From Gammaproteobacteria bacterium (GTDB taxonomy: Bacteria; Pseudomonadota; Gammaproteobacteria; SG8-11): 64,000 nucleotides of DNA. The position numbers were made by a program, and so were the translations under genes. The notes beneath the pieces are model-generated. The model searched no databases, had not been told where the DNA came from, and was given only the letters and a program-made list of their open reading frames with translations. The stretch covers positions 1 through 64,000 of the forward strand of contig JAHECY010000004.1 of NCBI GenBank assembly GCA_024641505.1, in the 5' to 3' direction. Positions 52,680 to 59,500 of the stretch are shown here, one piece after another; positions within the stretch are counted from its first letter, which is position 1, and each line of letters starts with the position of its first letter.

Positions 52680-53261
52680 ATGTCCGAAAAATGGGATCAA
52701 CGCTATCGACAGCAACTTGCCGATGGTTATCGTCCGGAGCCGGTGGCGGTGCTGACCGCCAATGCACACTGGTTGCCGCCGGCACCGGCAGCGGCGTTGG
52801 ACCTGGCTTGTGGCCTCGGTGCCAATGCGCAGTGGCTGGCGGCCCGGGGCTTTGCGGTGATGGCCACGGATATCTCACCGGTAGCGATCGCCCACTTGCA
52901 GGAGGTCGCCGCACGGCACTCGTACGCGATCACGGCGCAGGTGAGTGATGTTACGCAGTCGCCGCTTCCGGCGGCATCCTATCTGGTCATTGTGGTCAGC
53001 CAGTTTCTGGAGCGCGCGCTGTTTCCCCGGTTGTGCCACGCGCTGGCGCCGGGAGGCATGCTTTTCTACCAGACCTACACGCGGGAGCGGCCGACGTGTG
53101 CAACCGGCCCTGCCAATCCCGCGTATCTGCTGGCACCCAATGAATTGCTGCATTTGTGTTCTCCGCTGGTGGTGCGTTACTACCAGGAACCCGGCCTTGG
53201 CGTGCCGCACGGGTTTGTCTGTCCGGCGGGCTGCGCGCAAATCGTGGCCCAAAAGCCCTGA
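52680..53261 (+). CDS. SAM-dependent methyltransferase, TehB-like
   Basis: A 193-aa class I methyltransferase starting MSEKWDQRYR. Motif I is ALDLACGLGANAQWLA, motif II FAVMATDISP, motif IV YLVIVVSQFLE. Similar to TehB/thiopurine-type enzymes often found beside trk or rhodanese genes; the substrate is unknown. ATG 52680 is chosen from the family N-terminus. Its stop codon lies inside the strong palindrome that begins at 53256. Confidence 0.85.
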   Translation: MSEKWDQRYRQQLADGYRPEPVAVLTANAHWLPPAPAAALDLACGLGANAQWLAARGFAVMATDISPVAIAHLQEVAARHSYAITAQVSDVTQSPLPAASYLVIVVSQFLERALFPRLCHALAPGGMLFYQTYTRERPTCATGPANPAYLLAPNELLHLCSPLVVRYYQEPGLGVPHGFVCPAGCAQIVAQKP

Positions 53262-53297
53262 GTGATAGCGCACAGAGTTGTGTGATATCACTCAGGG
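53256..53297 (+). promoter_or_regulatory. 42-bp palindrome with two GTG-N6-CAC sites, candidate activator binding site
   Basis: CCCTGAGTGATA (53256-53267) and TATCACTCAGGG (53286-53297) are a perfect 12-bp inverted repeat whose arms continue inwards with most bases paired. Inside are two GTG-N6-CAC sites at 53262-53273 and 53280-53291, 18 bp apart. The centre lies about 109 bp before the predicted sigma-54 start at 53386, the usual distance of an enhancer site. It also overlaps the stop codon of the preceding gene, so a 3' hairpin is an alternative. Confidence 0.5.
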
Positions 53298-53359
53298 TAA
53301 TCTCTGCTCGTCCATCATCATTTCTCTCCAACTTAATGTAATTAAACAGTATTTTATGA

Positions 53360-53375
53360 TGGCCCGGGTCTTGCT
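53360..53375 (+). promoter_or_regulatory. sigma-54 (-24/-12) promoter
   Basis: TGGCCCG-ggtc-TTGCT compares with the consensus TGGCACG-N4-TTGCW with a single mismatch and exact GG-to-GC spacing. The transcription start should be near 53386, leaving about 88 nt of leader before the DUF4266 gene. The final gene of the cluster encodes a sigma-54 activator. Confidence 0.6.
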
Positions 53376-53473
53376 TAAAGCAGGAACTCGCGGTCTGACG
53401 GCGGCGTTTGCGGCTAGTTCAAGGGCAAGTGTTGACGGGGACCGCCTGGTGTTGATCGATAGGTTGAGAATTT

Positions 53474-53740
53474 ATGATCCAGAATGCCGAAGTTTCATGG
53501 CTGCGGCTGCCACGCCACCGGTGCCGCCATGCAGGCCGGGTATTGGTTGCGTTGCTGTTGGTCAGCGGACAAGGATGTGCGGGCATAGAGCCCTGGGAAC
53601 ATCAGTACCACGCGGACCCGATCATGCAACTGGTGGATGACGGTGAAGAACTGGCTTATCAGCAACATATGTTTCGAGCTCTGGCGCAGGGACTCACCGG
53701 CGCGCCCGTGGGGGGCGGTGGTTGCGGCTGTGAGCAGTGA
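53474..53740 (+). CDS. DUF4266 Cys-rich lipoprotein
   Basis: An 88-aa protein. The signal segment ends SGQGC (Cys35, likely lipidated), followed by GIEPWEHQYHADPIMQ, the VxPWE...LADPxM pattern of DUF4266, and a C-terminal Gly/Cys motif GGGGCGC (80-86). DUF4266 proteins are usually encoded next to DUF3570 proteins, as here with one gene between. The two terminal Cys could bind metal or flavin-like groups. It is the first gene after the sigma-54 promoter. Confidence 0.75.
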   Translation: MIQNAEVSWLRLPRHRCRHAGRVLVALLLVSGQGCAGIEPWEHQYHADPIMQLVDDGEELAYQQHMFRALAQGLTGAPVGGGGCGCEQ

Positions 53741-53823
53741 CGTCGCGGTTTTTTACGTCGATACACGCGCGCCGCGCCATGGGCAAATTTGATTGTTTCA
53801 ATTTGACGTTAACGGGAGTAGGT

Positions 53824-55374
53824 ATGCAGATGTGTGCACATACAAAGAAAGTGTTGTTAGCCATGTTGATGGCGACCACGCTAGCGGGTTGTAACAGCGG
53901 TTCCGGCAACAACGGAAGTGTTGCGGCCAAAATCGACGAGAATCCGGCCAAGTACTACGTGTTCGCGGTGGATCATGAGGGTTATGTCAACATTTATTCA
54001 GATGACGGCGGCCTCGGCATCGAGAAATCGTCGCAATCCTTTCAGCCCAAAAACAAGCAAGGCGGGGCATTGTCACTGGGTGAAATTCACTTCGTCAAGG
54101 GTAAAGCCGTGCTGGTGGTGCAAAACGGCTTCACCGATGATGCGGGTACCGCTATCGGTGGCGGTATTATCATAGTCGACGTCGCCACGCAGGCCTTGGA
54201 GTACATGATTCCCCTGCAATCAAGCAATGGTCTGGTCACGCGGCTCGTCCACAGCTATCTGGACCCGGACGGGCAGCATTTGTGGATCAATAACGACGGA
54301 CCGAACGGCAGTTCCGGTTTGACCGTGGAAGAAATCGCCATGGCGGATTCAGTGTTCCGGGTGAATGTGGATCATGAAGATACCATGGACCTGGATGCCG
54401 ACGGTTTGGGCGATGATATCTACATTGGCGCTTTCGTCGATGCCGATGCCGGCCACAACAATAATGCCAATGAAATCATCGTCGGTAACGGTCACAAGAA
54501 GAGTACCTTTACCGGTTCTGACGCCGGCGGCATGGCCATGAAATATTTCATGACCCACAATATGACCGATAAAACCGTATCCGTCATTGACAATGACCCC
54601 GCTGCCGCGAGCTTTCTGACGGTGGTGAAAACTATCAGTCTGGGCGACAGCGCGCCGCATGGCATGGATTTTTCGCATCACAGCGGCCATGTCTATACCG
54701 GGTTGGTAAGTGGCAGCAATGCGGTAAATATCATTGACGCCACCGATATGACTTTGCCGGCGGGCAATATCGCAGCGGGTACCGATGCCGGCCAGATTCC
54801 CGCCGGTGGTTACGTGCATACGCATGACGACTGGGTTTATACCGCGGGTTACAAAAATGGCGTGGGCTACCTGTCCGTGATTGATGCGGCTACCGACACC
54901 GTGTTGGAGGTTATTGATCTGGGAAATATTTCCTCAAGCAGCTTCAATATCAGCCACATGAGCATGACCCACGGCACCATGACCCATGAAATGCTCAAGG
55001 TGTATGTGCCGAGTCGCACTTCCGGTACTGCGGAGAATGATAAAATCGCGGTGGTTGAATTGGATATGACCACCGGCATGCGTAAAGCCGATGTGGCTGT
55101 GAAGCACATTCCCGTTGGCGCCGGCAGCGACCATCGTAACGGTAAGATTACCCCCGACGGTATGCATGCTTACTACCCTAACGGCGGTGATTGCGGCGTG
55201 GACCATGCAAGTCACGGTCCCAACTGCACCACGATATCAGTTATCAATACCATGACCGATGAAGTGATCGCCATTCTCAATACCGAAGGCCATGAGCCCG
55301 GCTCCATTGGGATTGTTGAGGCCACCGGTAATGAATCCATGACCGGTGATCCGGGTCACGAGCACATGCACTAG
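53824..55374 (+). CDS. Met/His-rich beta-propeller lipoprotein
   Basis: A 516-aa lipoprotein: GGGAG 5 nt before ATG 53824, lipobox LAGC (Cys23). The mature part has YVTN/YncE-like beta-propeller strands (VSVIDND, VNIIDATD, LSVIDAATDTVLEVI, ISVINTMTDEVIAIL). It is rich in His and Met, notably ISHMSMTHGTMTHEM (54946-54993), SHHSGH and a terminus GHEHMH, a composition typical of copper-binding periplasmic proteins. A calcium-like DLDADGLGDD also occurs. An intrinsic terminator follows. Confidence 0.78.
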   Translation: MQMCAHTKKVLLAMLMATTLAGCNSGSGNNGSVAAKIDENPAKYYVFAVDHEGYVNIYSDDGGLGIEKSSQSFQPKNKQGGALSLGEIHFVKGKAVLVVQNGFTDDAGTAIGGGIIIVDVATQALEYMIPLQSSNGLVTRLVHSYLDPDGQHLWINNDGPNGSSGLTVEEIAMADSVFRVNVDHEDTMDLDADGLGDDIYIGAFVDADAGHNNNANEIIVGNGHKKSTFTGSDAGGMAMKYFMTHNMTDKTVSVIDNDPAAASFLTVVKTISLGDSAPHGMDFSHHSGHVYTGLVSGSNAVNIIDATDMTLPAGNIAAGTDAGQIPAGGYVHTHDDWVYTAGYKNGVGYLSVIDAATDTVLEVIDLGNISSSSFNISHMSMTHGTMTHEMLKVYVPSRTSGTAENDKIAVVELDMTTGMRKADVAVKHIPVGAGSDHRNGKITPDGMHAYYPNGGDCGVDHASHGPNCTTISVINTMTDEVIAILNTEGHEPGSIGIVEATGNESMTGDPGHEHMH

Positions 55375-55395
55375 GTAACCTCCCGCCGGTGTTGT

Positions 55396-55437
55396 CGGGG
55401 CATGTCATTTGCCATGCCCCGGTAATGCCGGTTTTTT
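55396..55437 (+). terminator. Rho-independent terminator after the propeller gene
   Basis: CGGGGCATG (55396-55404) pairs with CATGCCCCG (55413-55421), a perfect 9-bp stem; a second short CCGG-taatg-CCGG stem leads into six T at 55432-55437. It should reduce, perhaps not abolish, transcription into the DUF3570 gene. Confidence 0.7.
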
Positions 55438-55614
55438 GCAATAGTCGCATCCCGACATCAACACAAAATTTCACCAAGACATCAGGTACGCAAATTCATG
55501 GCGCAATGTCTTGAAAAGAATTTATCCGTCCGGTCCTGGCGCCCTGGCGCGATAACCGGAGTTGCATACGGGCGGATGCGAATCATACATCCCTCGGCAT
55601 AGGTGTCCTTGCGT

Positions 55615-56742
55615 ATGTGCAGAAAGCTCTCAACAGTGTTGTGGCCCCTGGTGGCGGGTTTGGGTCTGGGCGTGGCGCAGGCGCCCTGGGCGCAAGACGA
55701 GTTACAGTTGTTTTTTGGTTATTACGCCGATGACAGCGGCTTGACCGTGCAGTCACCGAGCATTCGTTTGGGTAAAATGCTGTCCGAAGCAAATACATTC
55801 GGTATTAAATACACCCGTGAAAAATTCAATAAGGAGGCTCCCGCAAACGCGGTTGACGCGGTGAGCGGCGCCACCACGGTTGCCGGTGGCTCAGGCAGCG
55901 GTTTCAGCGAAGTACGCCATGAATGGGTGCTTACCGACAGCCATAACTTTGGGGATACCGCTGTGACCGGCGGAGTATTTTTCAGCGAGGAAACTGATTT
56001 CAAATCCGAGGGGGTGTCGCTGGCCCTGTCGCGCCAGATGTTGCGCAACAATCTCACGCTTACCGGCATGTATAACTACACCGGTGATGAAATCGACAAA
56101 CATGATGCCGTGGCATCAGAAAAATTTCCCAGAACCAAAGAGGTTAATGGCCTAACATTGGCGGCAACCCAGATCGTCAATCCCGTGCTGGTTGTGGTCG
56201 GTGGTTATAGCTATGCAGCGGTGGAGGGTTATCAGAGTCAGCCGTTGCGCAAGATTTCCATTGATCAAGAGGTATCCGGTGGCGGTGGCACGGTATCTTA
56301 TGTCTATGAAGAAAGGCACCCGCGACAACGTGAACGTCAGACGTTGTTCTTTCGCGCCAAGCAATACTTTCAGACGCGCACCAGCGCGGATGTCAATTTA
56401 TCCTATTACCGCGATGACTGGGGCGTGGATGCCTCGGCTGTCGATATCAAGCTGCAGCAATACTTGCATCCGATGTTGATAGTGCGCGGACGCATGCGTT
56501 ATTACCACCAGAGCGCCGCAGATTTTTATCGGGAATCCTATGCCATGCCCCAGGACCTGATGACTGCCGATTCCCGGTTGCGACAATTTGACACCTTACT
56601 TTCGGGGGTCAAGCTGTTATACGCTTGGGACAATCTGGGATGGCGGGGTTGGTCTACGTCCCTGAATTACGAGCGCTATCGGGAAACACGGCAGGGACTT
56701 AAGGCGGATATCCTCATGTTGAGTATTAAAGCTCCGCTTTGA
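55615..56742 (+). CDS. DUF3570 outer-membrane barrel protein
   Basis: A 375-aa protein with AGGTG 9 nt before ATG 55615 and a signal peptide ending PWA near residue 26. Many alternating strands (YYADDSGLTVQSPSIRLG, LTGMYNYTG, RTSADVNLSYYRDDWG) and the terminal ADILMLSIKAPL fit a beta-barrel; DUF3570 is the family. DUF3570 and DUF4266 genes commonly travel together, sometimes with ApbE and thioredoxin genes, which are absent here. GTG 55603 is a second start. Confidence 0.78.
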   Translation: MCRKLSTVLWPLVAGLGLGVAQAPWAQDELQLFFGYYADDSGLTVQSPSIRLGKMLSEANTFGIKYTREKFNKEAPANAVDAVSGATTVAGGSGSGFSEVRHEWVLTDSHNFGDTAVTGGVFFSEETDFKSEGVSLALSRQMLRNNLTLTGMYNYTGDEIDKHDAVASEKFPRTKEVNGLTLAATQIVNPVLVVVGGYSYAAVEGYQSQPLRKISIDQEVSGGGGTVSYVYEERHPRQRERQTLFFRAKQYFQTRTSADVNLSYYRDDWGVDASAVDIKLQQYLHPMLIVRGRMRYYHQSAADFYRESYAMPQDLMTADSRLRQFDTLLSGVKLLYAWDNLGWRGWSTSLNYERYRETRQGLKADILMLSIKAPL

Positions 56743-56797
56743 GCAAACAAAATCGTATATCGTCAGTTCCCGTCGATAGAGTGTAGACTTCACGATT

Positions 56798-57499
56798 ATG
56801 GAATTAACCCTGCCGCTCGCATTTACCATTGGTCTGTTCAGCACCTTGCATTGTGTAGGTATGTGCGGGGGCGTTATCGGTACCTTGAGCATGAGTCTGG
56901 CGCCGCACATACGAAATCACCGGCTAAAGCTGCTGGGTTTTGTGCTGGTTTACAGTGTGGGGCGTATTTCCAGTTATGCTGTGGCGGGATTTGTCCTGGC
57001 ATTGGCGGGCAGCGAAATATTTAATGCGCTCAGCCCCCAGTACGGGCACCATGCCCTCACCTGGTTATCGTCGTTGCTGATCGGCTTGATAGGCGTGTAT
57101 CTGGCGGGCTGGTTTCCCGGGCTCAATCGTCTGGAACGCCTGGGGCAGCCTTTGTGGCGGAAAATTGAGCCCATCGGCAGGCGTTTGCTGCCGGTATCGA
57201 CACTGACTCACGCCTATGTGTTCGGATCGATTTGGGGTTGGTTGCCTTGTGGTCTGGTGTATACCACCTTGTTATGGGCGGCTTCGGCGGGCAGTGGCAT
57301 GGAGGGCGCCTTGATGATGCTGGCGTTTGGATTGGGGACTTTACCTGTGGTGCTTGCCGCGGGTATGCTCACGAGTGGTTTGCTCAGGTATTTGCGGATG
57401 TCGGCAACGCGACGTTATGCGGGCATGGTAATGATAGGTTTGGCCGTGCTCAGCGTTTGGTATGAATCGCAAACACATACCGCACACCTGCATCATTAA
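56798..57499 (+). CDS. TauE/SafE-type membrane transporter (COG2836-like)
   Basis: A 233-aa inner-membrane protein with six predicted helices. The FSTLHCVGMCGGV motif (Cys19, Cys23) and the WLPCGLVYTTL motif near 155 are characteristic of the small TauE/SafE-like subfamily linked to copper delivery and cytochrome oxidase assembly. The C-terminus is His-rich (THTAHLHH). A metal role is inference. It sits 55 nt after the DUF3570 gene and 24 nt before a sigma-54 activator. Confidence 0.85.
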   Translation: MELTLPLAFTIGLFSTLHCVGMCGGVIGTLSMSLAPHIRNHRLKLLGFVLVYSVGRISSYAVAGFVLALAGSEIFNALSPQYGHHALTWLSSLLIGLIGVYLAGWFPGLNRLERLGQPLWRKIEPIGRRLLPVSTLTHAYVFGSIWGWLPCGLVYTTLLWAASAGSGMEGALMMLAFGLGTLPVVLAAGMLTSGLLRYLRMSATRRYAGMVMIGLAVLSVWYESQTHTAHLHH

Positions 57500-57523
57500 A
57501 ATAATTGCATAGGGCTCAGGGGC

Positions 57524-58501
57524 ATGAGTACAGAATTTGATCGCTTAATTGGCGCATCGCCGGAACTGCAAAATGTTATCAACGCCGCCCGCGTGGTGGC
57601 CGTTACCGATGTCACCGTGCTGATTCAGGGGGAGAGCGGTACCGGCAAGGAACTACTGGCACAAGCGCTGCACGCCGCCAGCCGCCGGGCCAAACGTACC
57701 TTGATCACCATCAATTGCGCGGCACTTCCGGAAGCTCTGGTAGAGTCGGAATTATTCGGGCACCGCAAAGGCGCTTTTACCGGCGCTACTCAGGATTATC
57801 TCGGACGCATCCGGGCCGCGCAGGGTGGCACGGTGTTTCTCGATGAAGTCGGCGAACTTTCATTGCCGGTGCAGGCAAAATTATTGCGCTTCCTGGAAAC
57901 CGGTGAATGCCAGCCCGTAGGCGCCACGGGCGTGGTGGCGACCGATGTCAGAGTCATTGCCGCCACCAATAGCGATCTGGCCGCGCGCGTGCAATCCGGT
58001 CACTTTCGCGGGGACCTGTATTATCGATTGCACGTGGTACCGATGGAATTGCCGCCCTTGCGGCAGCGGCGCGGCGACATTGTACCCTTGCTCGCCCATT
58101 GTTTGCGCTATTTCAGCAGTCACCATCAGGTGCCGGCGCCAGAATTCAGCCGGGATGCGCTCCGCATCTTGAAAGCCTACGCTTGGCCAGGCAATGTGCG
58201 TGAATTGCGTAATCTTTGTGAACGCCTGGTGATATTGCTACCCGGGCAACACGTCGATGTGCAGAATCTGCCACAGAACCTGGTCCAGGCCGCGCGTGAC
58301 ACGGGTCGCATATTGCCGTTGGCGGCGCGTGCGCCGTTTGCCGCTATCGCTGATGTGGAGAAAGCCATGTTACGGGATGCCTTGTATCATTTTGCCGGCA
58401 ATCAAAGTCAGGCGGCCCGCTCGTTGGGTCTATCCCGTGATGCGTTCTTGTACCGATTGAAAAAATATGGAATACATTATCAGGTTTCCCTGACGCACTG
58501 A
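57524..58501 (+). CDS. sensor-less sigma-54 activator (bEBP)
   Basis: A 325-aa enhancer-binding protein of AAA+ plus Fis-type helix-turn-helix only, like PspF; it has no REC, GAF or PAS domain. Walker A GESGTGKE (36-43), the sigma-54 contact GAFTGA (83-88), Walker B TVFLDE (103-108), R-finger region YRLHVVP and HTH (NQSQAARSLGLSRDAFLYRL, about 290-312) are intact. Its activity must be set by a partner, by its own level or be constitutive. As the last gene of the cluster with a sigma-54 promoter upstream, it probably acts on that promoter. Confidence 0.92.
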   Translation: MSTEFDRLIGASPELQNVINAARVVAVTDVTVLIQGESGTGKELLAQALHAASRRAKRTLITINCAALPEALVESELFGHRKGAFTGATQDYLGRIRAAQGGTVFLDEVGELSLPVQAKLLRFLETGECQPVGATGVVATDVRVIAATNSDLAARVQSGHFRGDLYYRLHVVPMELPPLRQRRGDIVPLLAHCLRYFSSHHQVPAPEFSRDALRILKAYAWPGNVRELRNLCERLVILLPGQHVDVQNLPQNLVQAARDTGRILPLAARAPFAAIADVEKAMLRDALYHFAGNQSQAARSLGLSRDAFLYRLKKYGIHYQVSLTH

Positions 58502-58708
58502 AGATTCCCGGGGGCTGAATCCGACACCATCGCTGTTGGTGCGTGCTGAGCAGACCGTTCCTGGAATATGTTGTTTTGGCCGGTTACCGCTGGAAAAAAG
58601 CGGAAAAATAGTTGCCGCACGATATATCAAAGTCGCTTTATATTATTAATAAAGATATATGTGACGCCGTTAACTCTCCTGTGCAAATTAATGCCTGGAG
58701 TATGCATT

Positions 58709-59500
58709 ATGGGTGTCCGTAATTCTTTTCTGTCTTCCATCACACTGCTTGTGATAACTGCATCGCAAAATTTCGTGTTTGCATCTTATGATGATGGATT
58801 GACGGCCTATGCCGCCGGCGATTTTGATACTGCAGCCAAGGAGTTTATGACGGCGGCAGCGGCGGGCGACGCCGGCGCGGCGCACATGTTATCGAAAATG
58901 TATCAGGAGCACCGTGGTGTACCAGCGGACGCGGCACTGGCCTTTAAATGGACCATGGCCGCAGCCGAGGAAGGTATTGCTCAGGCGCAATATCAGTTGG
59001 CGGGTCTCTATGAATCCGGTGCGCAGGGGGAGCCCAACTATGAAGCGGCGGTCTTGTGGTATCACCGGGCGGCTCAACAGGGTTACCCGTTGGCGTATTA
59101 CAAGCTGGCGCACCTTTATACCGAGGGGCTAGGCGTCGAGGCAAGCAAGGAACAGGGGCGTTTGTTGTTTGGAAAAGCGGCGTCGGAACTGGACGTGCAT
59201 GCTCAAAAAGGCGATGCCCAGTCGCAAGACGTGCTGGCAAGCATGTATGAAAAGGGTATGGGAGTAGGCCGGGATCTTGACAAGGCCTTGTACTGGTATC
59301 GGCGTGCAGCCAATCAAGGATTGGCGACTGCGGAACTGAACATGGCTCGCATGTATATCAAGGGCAGGGGTGTTGCGCGCAGCACGGAAACCGCGTTGAA
59401 ATGGTTGCGGCAGGCCGCGGATCACGGCTCCCTGCATGCGCAGCAGATCGTGGCGGCGCATGCTGCGCGTGGCGAGGCCAGTCTGGCCAGTCTGGATTAA
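58709..59500 (+). CDS. Sel1-repeat exported protein
   Basis: A 263-aa protein with GGAG 8 nt before ATG 58709 and a signal peptide ending VFA near 25. Five to six Sel1 repeats of about 36 residues follow (for example AQAQYQLAGLYESG, PLAYYKLAHLYTEGLG, ALYWYRRAANQG), a scaffold for protein-protein contacts. The 207-nt region before it contains only a small CACCA...TGGTG hairpin near 58526. The partner is unknown. Confidence 0.85.
   Translation: MGVRNSFLSSITLLVITASQNFVFASYDDGLTAYAAGDFDTAAKEFMTAAAAGDAGAAHMLSKMYQEHRGVPADAALAFKWTMAAAEEGIAQAQYQLAGLYESGAQGEPNYEAAVLWYHRAAQQGYPLAYYKLAHLYTEGLGVEASKEQGRLLFGKAASELDVHAQKGDAQSQDVLASMYEKGMGVGRDLDKALYWYRRAANQGLATAELNMARMYIKGRGVARSTETALKWLRQAADHGSLHAQQIVAAHAARGEASLASLD

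Follow-up and report, generated by a model that had tools for sequence, protein, structure and literature searches.

The window analysed here, a stretch of 64,000 nucleotides from contig JAHECY010000004.1 of a gammaproteobacterium, carries five adjacent + strand genes downstream of a sigma-54-type promoter, which encode a DUF4266 protein, a His-rich beta-propeller, a DUF3570 protein, a DsbD_2 membrane protein and a sigma-54 activator. A first-pass annotation had proposed that these genes form a self-contained sigma-54 regulon with a role in copper handling or envelope electron transfer, an interpretation that is partly supported by what follows. The gene set, its order, the promoter, the palindromes upstream of it, an intercistronic hairpin and the protein motifs are described from computation.

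Protein families were assigned with Pfam and NCBIfam profile scans of the five genes and four neighbours. The first gene (53474..53740, + strand) encodes a small lipoprotein-like DUF4266 protein (PF14086, 38.5 bits against a cut-off of 27) that ends in GGGGCGCEQ, and the second (53824..55374, +) a propeller lipoprotein of 516 residues with an HxH C-terminus, recognised from its orthologues, a structural model and propeller folds in the PDB. These are followed by a short DUF3570 protein (55603..56742, +; PF12094, 139.9 bits against 25, covering profile positions 106-397 of 427), whose start codon is uncertain (GTG 55603, TTG 55609 or ATG 55615), and by a DsbD_2 (SafE-like) membrane protein (56798..57499, +; PF13386, 162.1 bits against 24.9). 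The last gene (57524..58501, +) encodes a sigma-54 activator that exceeds the Pfam cut-offs for Sigma54_activat, the AAA lid and the Fis-type helix-turn-helix and, because its AAA+ domain begins at residue 8, is sensor-less. With four genes over Pfam cut-offs and a propeller model that matches beta-propellers, we confirm both the five-gene set and the sensor-less activator of the first-pass annotation. After the activator gene, at 58682-59500, a Sel1-repeat protein is encoded.

Conservation and rarity of the locus

Propeller orthologues with 61-45% identity were found in four other genomes of the same class, namely Proteobacteria bacterium UBA6920 (G001), from the same genus as the window genome, Proteobacteria bacterium WH4.bin33 (G040), Gammaproteobacteria bacterium PMV_4.23 (G379) and a fourth, G304. 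All five loci keep one gene order over the length that their contigs cover: the loci of the window, G040 and G304 are complete, and a contig end cuts G001 inside the DsbD_2 gene and G379 inside the DUF3570 gene. A TlpA/AhpC-TSA thioredoxin-like gene stands first in two of the five loci, G040 and G379. In G304 a leader of about 300 bases (L041, 9931-10260, minus strand) separates the promoter from DUF4266, in the place that the thioredoxin gene occupies in these two loci, with no coding remnant obvious by eye.

The gene family is rare. At E 1e-15 or better the propeller was detected in 6 of 369 genomes of the class, four of them below 1e-140, and by the same threshold in 2 of 24 genomes of one family and one of three of an order; at E 1e-20 the window genome alone had it among 398 genomes of the phylum, and at E 0.001 it appeared in 8 of 94 relatives, five at 7e-17 or weaker. 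These survey sets overlap, so that the counts include the window genome or genomes already counted. A scan of named genomes returned none with a single propeller query and three, the G001, G379 and G040 loci, with an alignment query. Among plasmids only two records gave matches, weak and at 26% identity; in CP114554.1 and CP114559.1 (Candidatus Manganitrophus) hypothetical proteins are 26% identical to the propeller over 69% of its length. Viral contigs yielded neither a relative of the propeller nor the exact palindrome/-24 pattern described below, and a viral origin was rejected, as was a role in defence, since the three proteins submitted to PADLOC had no match there.

A sigma-54-type promoter with phased palindromes

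The -24/-12 element TGGCCCGGGTCTTGCT lies at 53360..53375 (+), exactly where the first-pass annotation had placed it, and is the sole exact match to TGGCNCGNNNNTTGCW within the window; an element with one or two mismatches to the consensus is present in all four other loci. Upstream of it are two palindromes. Site 1, GAGTGATAGCGCAC (53260..53273, +), the predicted distal activator site, has three mismatches to the consensus and shares bases with the stop codon of the methyltransferase gene that lies upstream, and site 2, GTGTGATATCACTC (53280..53293, +), the predicted proximal site 20 bp away, is found in all four other loci; the GTG-N6-CAC copies themselves lie at 53262-53273 and 53280-53291. 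A second palindrome similar to site 1 occurs in G040 (three mismatches) and in G304 and G379 (two each). The distance of about 110 bp that had been given between the palindromes and the predicted start holds for a transcription start placed from the -12 element at about 53386, which puts the site centres near -100 and -120, and not for the DUF4266 start codon (53474), ahead of which the palindromes begin by 194 and 214 bp.

It is the combination of these motifs and its conservation in other genomes that beats chance; the single motifs do not. The -24/-12 consensus used in our scans is that known from the literature. Within the window, -24/-12-like matches with at most one mismatch number 5 against 4.25 expected, and GTG-N6-CAC occurs 10 times against 18.9 expected. 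When the window-derived 12-mer GTGTGATATCAC (at most two mismatches) was required together with a -24/-12 consensus (at most two mismatches) 60-130 bp downstream, in the 500 bp upstream of the first gene, the pair was present in all four other loci, at 77-100 bp, compared with 2 of 12,000 shuffles that preserve dinucleotides. When 12 loci, these five among them, were scanned over 467,456 strand-bases with GTGTGANATCACAC, a consensus drawn after all five had been seen, seven pairs appeared and none lay outside the five loci. A chance neighbourhood of unrelated envelope genes and accidental motifs would agree with the counts of single motifs in the window; it is contradicted by the four other genomes, where order and motifs are kept down to about 45% protein identity, and we regard it as extremely improbable.

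The distance from palindrome start to the TGG of the -24 element is 80 and 100 bp in the window, 79 in G001 (one site), 77 and 99 in G040, 98 and 120 in G379 and 100 and 121 in G304, and thus falls into classes of 77-80, 98-100 and 120-121 bp, in steps of about two helical turns. The paired sites are 20-22 bp apart and so share roughly one helical face. A reading of the palindromes as the terminator of the upstream methyltransferase gene is disfavoured because the neighbouring upstream genes differ in G040, G304 and G379 and the palindromes persist there.

Sites resembling TGTGATATCACA also resemble the sites of other regulators. One possibility is that the promoter is a sigma-54 promoter whose palindromes bind a different protein, a CRP/FNR-like or GntR-like dimer or a repressor, and that the linked activator acts elsewhere or without fixed sites. 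The window genome has 10 palindromes within two mismatches of GTGTGATATCACAC, which is only a slight enrichment because the reversed control pattern gives six, and the nine others have no -24/-12 element (at most two mismatches) in range, one of them having a candidate with three mismatches; both facts suit such a regulator. Against it, the palindromes are helically phased to the -24 element and accompany the operon in distant genomes, and twelve other DUF3570 loci that lack the activator gene also lack the pair. We therefore consider binding by another regulator unlikely.

Those twelve loci, to which the window genome contributes four and other genomes eight (8-18 kb each, 339,552 strand-bases), contain no palindrome/-24 pair. 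Nor did tblastn at E 1e-3 detect relatives of the activator, propeller or DsbD_2 protein in them, while it returned all three from the G040 and G304 loci used as positive controls. The four in the window genome lie on contigs C102, C149, C52 and C4 (L028-L031); three have DUF4266, one is followed by ApbE, and the sigma-54 pair is at none of them. The next-closest DUF3570 in the class sample (L102, G056:C8, 7832-12129), which is without the activator, lies in a cluster that also encodes DUF4266, a thioredoxin-like protein, a protein whose haem-binding match is weak and an FG-GAP lipoprotein ending in a His-rich tail (HAGHH), and so has another His-tailed partner adjoining DUF3570. In other genomes of the class (L103-L109) a gene for a large protein (855-1023 residues) precedes DUF3570 in six of seven loci, with smaller genes between, and a TlpA-like protein was recognised in four of the seven.

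The genome encodes one RpoN, on which the operon is predicted to depend, and the activator has the Walker motifs, the GAFTGA motif and the helix-turn-helix that such a protein needs. The GAFTGA motif reads GAFTGA in the window, GAFSGA in G040 and GSFTHA in G304. Because the gene set and its elements recur in four other genomes, RpoN is encoded and, of the ten palindromes found in the genome, this one alone has a good -24/-12 element in range, the self-contained sigma-54 regulon proposed by the first-pass annotation is a well-supported prediction. With a -24/-12 element before the first gene and conserved activator-like sites upstream of it, the activator would be expected to bind the palindromes and to regulate its own operon.

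Predicted flavin and thiol proteins

The first-pass annotation knew of no description of the full set. This is not borne out, because a module of DsbD, thioredoxin, DUF4266, DUF3570 and ApbE has been described as flavinylation-based electron transfer (Meheust et al., 2021; PMC8238504), and the set is thus not without precedent. According to the relevant part of that paper, DUF3570 is a protein flavinylated by ApbE and DUF4266 is a CXC protein of the DsbD/thioredoxin module, and the function of DUF3570-type electron transfer remains uncertain. A full-text search of the open-licence literature returned nothing on DUF4266 or DUF3570 beyond PMC8238504, whose supplementary tables may list such clusters.

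The proteins of the window carry much of what this module would lead one to expect. DUF4266 ends with the CXC motif, as CGC, in the window and in its orthologues. DUF3570 has one [S/T]GA[S/T] site, the SGAT of VDAVSGATTV, which is invariant in four aligned rows, the G379 protein being cut off ahead of the site and standing outside the alignment. Its structural model, made from three sequences, is mostly beta (predicted local distance difference test, pLDDT, 71.1) and matches outer-membrane barrels; the loop that holds the SGAT (residues 80-95) is modelled at low confidence. Flavinylation of DUF3570, its location in the outer membrane and its part in a redox relay are predicted from its family. 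No ApbE gene lies in the cluster; the window genome has two, on contigs C112 and C52, the window itself being on C94. The membrane protein matches DsbD_2 (PF13386) and not DsbD (PF02683) at E up to 0.1. Its cysteines, HCxGMC and WLPCG, are invariant in the three complete proteins, and each of the three ends in a 20-residue stretch with four His, compared with a mean of 0.63 for 46 window open reading frames of at least 150 residues, a crude list that includes the cluster's own proteins. The SafE-like transporter of the first-pass annotation is therefore of the right family, DsbD_2, and is better read as a membrane thiol protein than as a transporter. Because of its gene content, with no ApbE in the cluster, we regard the locus as a relative and not a strict member of the published module.

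A His-rich propeller

By sequence, nothing exceeded the threshold for the window propeller in Pfam, NCBIfam, PHROGs or PDB searches. A lipoprotein-like signal, LAGC, can be seen by eye, and the Pfam lipoprotein-signal match is below threshold. The AlphaFold model, made from four sequences, is all-beta (pLDDT 73.4, predicted template modelling score 0.77), and its fold matches include NirF (Z 29.4, 3.4 Å, 346 residues aligned), cytochrome cd1 (Z 28.7, 3.2 Å, 353 aligned) and AztD (Z 26.4, 3.5 Å, 333 aligned). Because generic propellers dominate the fold matches, the top one in a second fold search being a designed propeller, we claim no family.

Each of the five propellers has 22-27 His and an HxH end. 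Seven internal His are invariant in the five-protein alignment (H89, H143, H224, H245, H279, H289 and H437), as are two more near the C-terminus, and H89, H143, H245 and H279 lie on predicted strands of the model, which may be the inner strands of successive blades lining a channel. Metal binding by the propeller is thus suggested by its sequence. Of the 'Met/His propeller' previously proposed the His holds and the Met does not, since 2 of 23 Met are invariant over the five proteins, one being the start, and the content falls to 1.5% in G040. Copper, as deduced from Met content, was rejected and, because that content is not conserved, has no direct support; envelope electron transfer is the stronger of the two roles first suggested. 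In G040, one of the genomes with the full cluster, a diverged second propeller, GHSH-tailed, is encoded beside a porin gene (L026, G040:C80, 9304-11181).

The propeller could itself be a copper oxidoreductase, as are the propellers of methanethiol oxidase, thiocyanate dehydrogenase and nitrous oxide reductase, with the thiol and flavin partners maturing it or exchanging electrons with it. The seven invariant His, four of which fall on presumed channel-lining strands, are consistent with this, thiocyanate dehydrogenase is among the fold matches, and a profile comparison with MtoX (10 of 12 MtoX loci) gave a 44-column match at E 0.0025 and probability 11.8, with no global alignment. However, the SBP56/MtoX matches of the four orthologues scanned reach at most 14.2 bits against a curated cut-off of 650, the window propeller has no such match at E 0.1, cytochrome cd1 stands above thiocyanate dehydrogenase in Foldseek, and none of these copper enzymes is among the 50 entries listed by the second fold search, in which NirF, cd1 and AztD are present. 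The SBP56/MtoX signals are thus below any threshold and a lead only, and we think a copper oxidoreductase rather unlikely. Residues needed for the activity of SELENBP1 are treated in part of PMC10362175.

Alternatively, the cluster could serve the uptake or chaperoning of zinc or another metal, with the propeller as an AztD-like metallochaperone and the DsbD_2 protein moving the metal. The AztD fold match and the His-rich tails of the cluster proteins would fit, as AztD binds zinc through pore His and C-terminal His (as given in part of PMC6689063). On the other side, the scan of the five cluster genes and four neighbours shows no ABC transporter gene, many other propellers match as AztD does, which is seen by fold and not among the NCBIfam matches listed (whether that library has an AztD model was not verified), and the flavin and CXC partners speak for redox chemistry. 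A metal-uptake system of this kind appears improbable to us.

A hairpin between the propeller and DUF3570 genes

Between the propeller and DUF3570 genes lies a hairpin (55385..55437, +), at the same place in all five loci and with a different sequence in each. In the window it has a 20-pair stem and a T tract, and its z is -4.1 for the first 95 of the 237 gap bases and -3.7 over 126 bases, and in the other loci it is -1.6 (G001), -5.3 (G040), -2.4 (G304) and -5.1 (G379) (first 110 bases), compared with -0.7 to +2.2 for seven other operon gaps. A T run follows it in the window and G001 only. The hairpin probably sets a protein ratio or partly terminates transcription.

Proposed mechanism

As the best explanation of the locus as a whole, we consider it probable that this is a sigma-54 operon which regulates itself and encodes a thiol/flavin relay of the envelope, in the service of a metal-binding propeller. 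We infer every step beyond an operon with conserved sigma-54 signals. The locus would be one regulatory unit. Its activator would bind the palindromes, mostly a pair of sites close to GTGTGAWATCACAC, which lie on a single helical face some 77-121 bp ahead of the -24 element; by looping to the -24/-12 promoter it would then switch on the whole operon, its own gene with it. The signal would enter through another protein or the abundance of the activator itself. Owing to the hairpin, the membrane parts would be less abundant than DUF4266 and the propeller. Thiol electrons would leave the cytosol through DsbD_2 in the inner membrane, DUF4266 with its CXC motif and a TlpA-like thioredoxin would ferry them onward, and a flavin on the SGAT of the outer-membrane DUF3570 barrel would give electrons to, or take them from, the His-rich propeller lipoprotein, which would bind metal.

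Several observations weigh against this model. There are five loci in all, three of them (G001, G040 and G379) in metagenome-assembled genomes, and activator gene and palindromes are seen together in three loci only, the other two ending at contig ends. G001 has one palindrome, with no second site found, and the second sites of the window and G040 have three mismatches to the consensus. The G304 activator has GSFTHA for GAFTGA, and changes in this motif impair open-complex formation (as reported in part of PMC7057263). The cluster of the window has no thioredoxin gene, nor an ApbE gene, and the channel His of the propeller are placed from secondary structure alone. The G001 hairpin is the weakest and by itself not significant, 12 of 200 shuffles folding as well, and a T-tailed hairpin could uncouple DUF3570, DsbD_2 and the activator from the promoter.

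The regulatory part of the model is a strong prediction. More tentatively, a dedicated sigma-54 switch and an outer-membrane flavin/thiol relay may feed a new family of metal-bearing propeller lipoproteins with a ring of invariant histidines, which would make the locus a hitherto undescribed metalloredox enzyme or metal-acquisition machine of the periplasm or cell surface, its sensor-less activator perhaps controlled in trans by an envelope component; we hold this as a speculative possibility. Since this version of the module is accompanied by an activator, a promoter and upstream sites of its own, there is a way in: the trigger of the switch could lead to the physiological role of the relay. 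The cluster also adds an unclassified family of His-rich propellers as candidate redox partner, and the conserved intercistronic hairpin suggests a fixed stoichiometry.

Comparison with known systems

SBP56/MtoX, the copper methanethiol oxidase, here through the portion of PMC10362175 on SELENBP1, shares the propeller and a short local similarity around DPxSPxF...HG, and differs in that the window family is sub-threshold in both libraries searched and has no global alignment with it. AztD, as far as PMC6689063 describes it, has in common with our protein the propeller fold, His residues and a C-terminal His, whereas here the cluster has no AztABC genes and the propeller has a lipoprotein-type signal.

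PspF and HrpRS, which in the relevant part of PMC7057263 have no cis-regulatory domain and are controlled in trans, resemble the activator in consisting of AAA+ and helix-turn-helix only, with no regulatory domain, and in the use of upstream sites and a -24/-12 promoter. Here, by contrast, the activator is linked to envelope redox genes and probably activates its own operon.

The closest comparison is with the clusters of PMC8238504, which, to the extent that source sets them out, share with the locus DUF4266 with a C-terminal CXC, DUF3570 with [S/T]GA[S/T], a DsbD-type membrane protein and a TlpA-like thioredoxin, the last in two of our five loci. Our locus differs in lacking ApbE, in having DsbD_2 for DsbD and in its shortened DUF3570, and it adds the His-rich propeller lipoprotein, the sigma-54 activator with its promoter elements and the intercistronic hairpin. 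We conclude that it is a genuine conserved, self-contained sigma-54 unit and a variant form of the envelope module for electron transfer that is linked to flavinylation.

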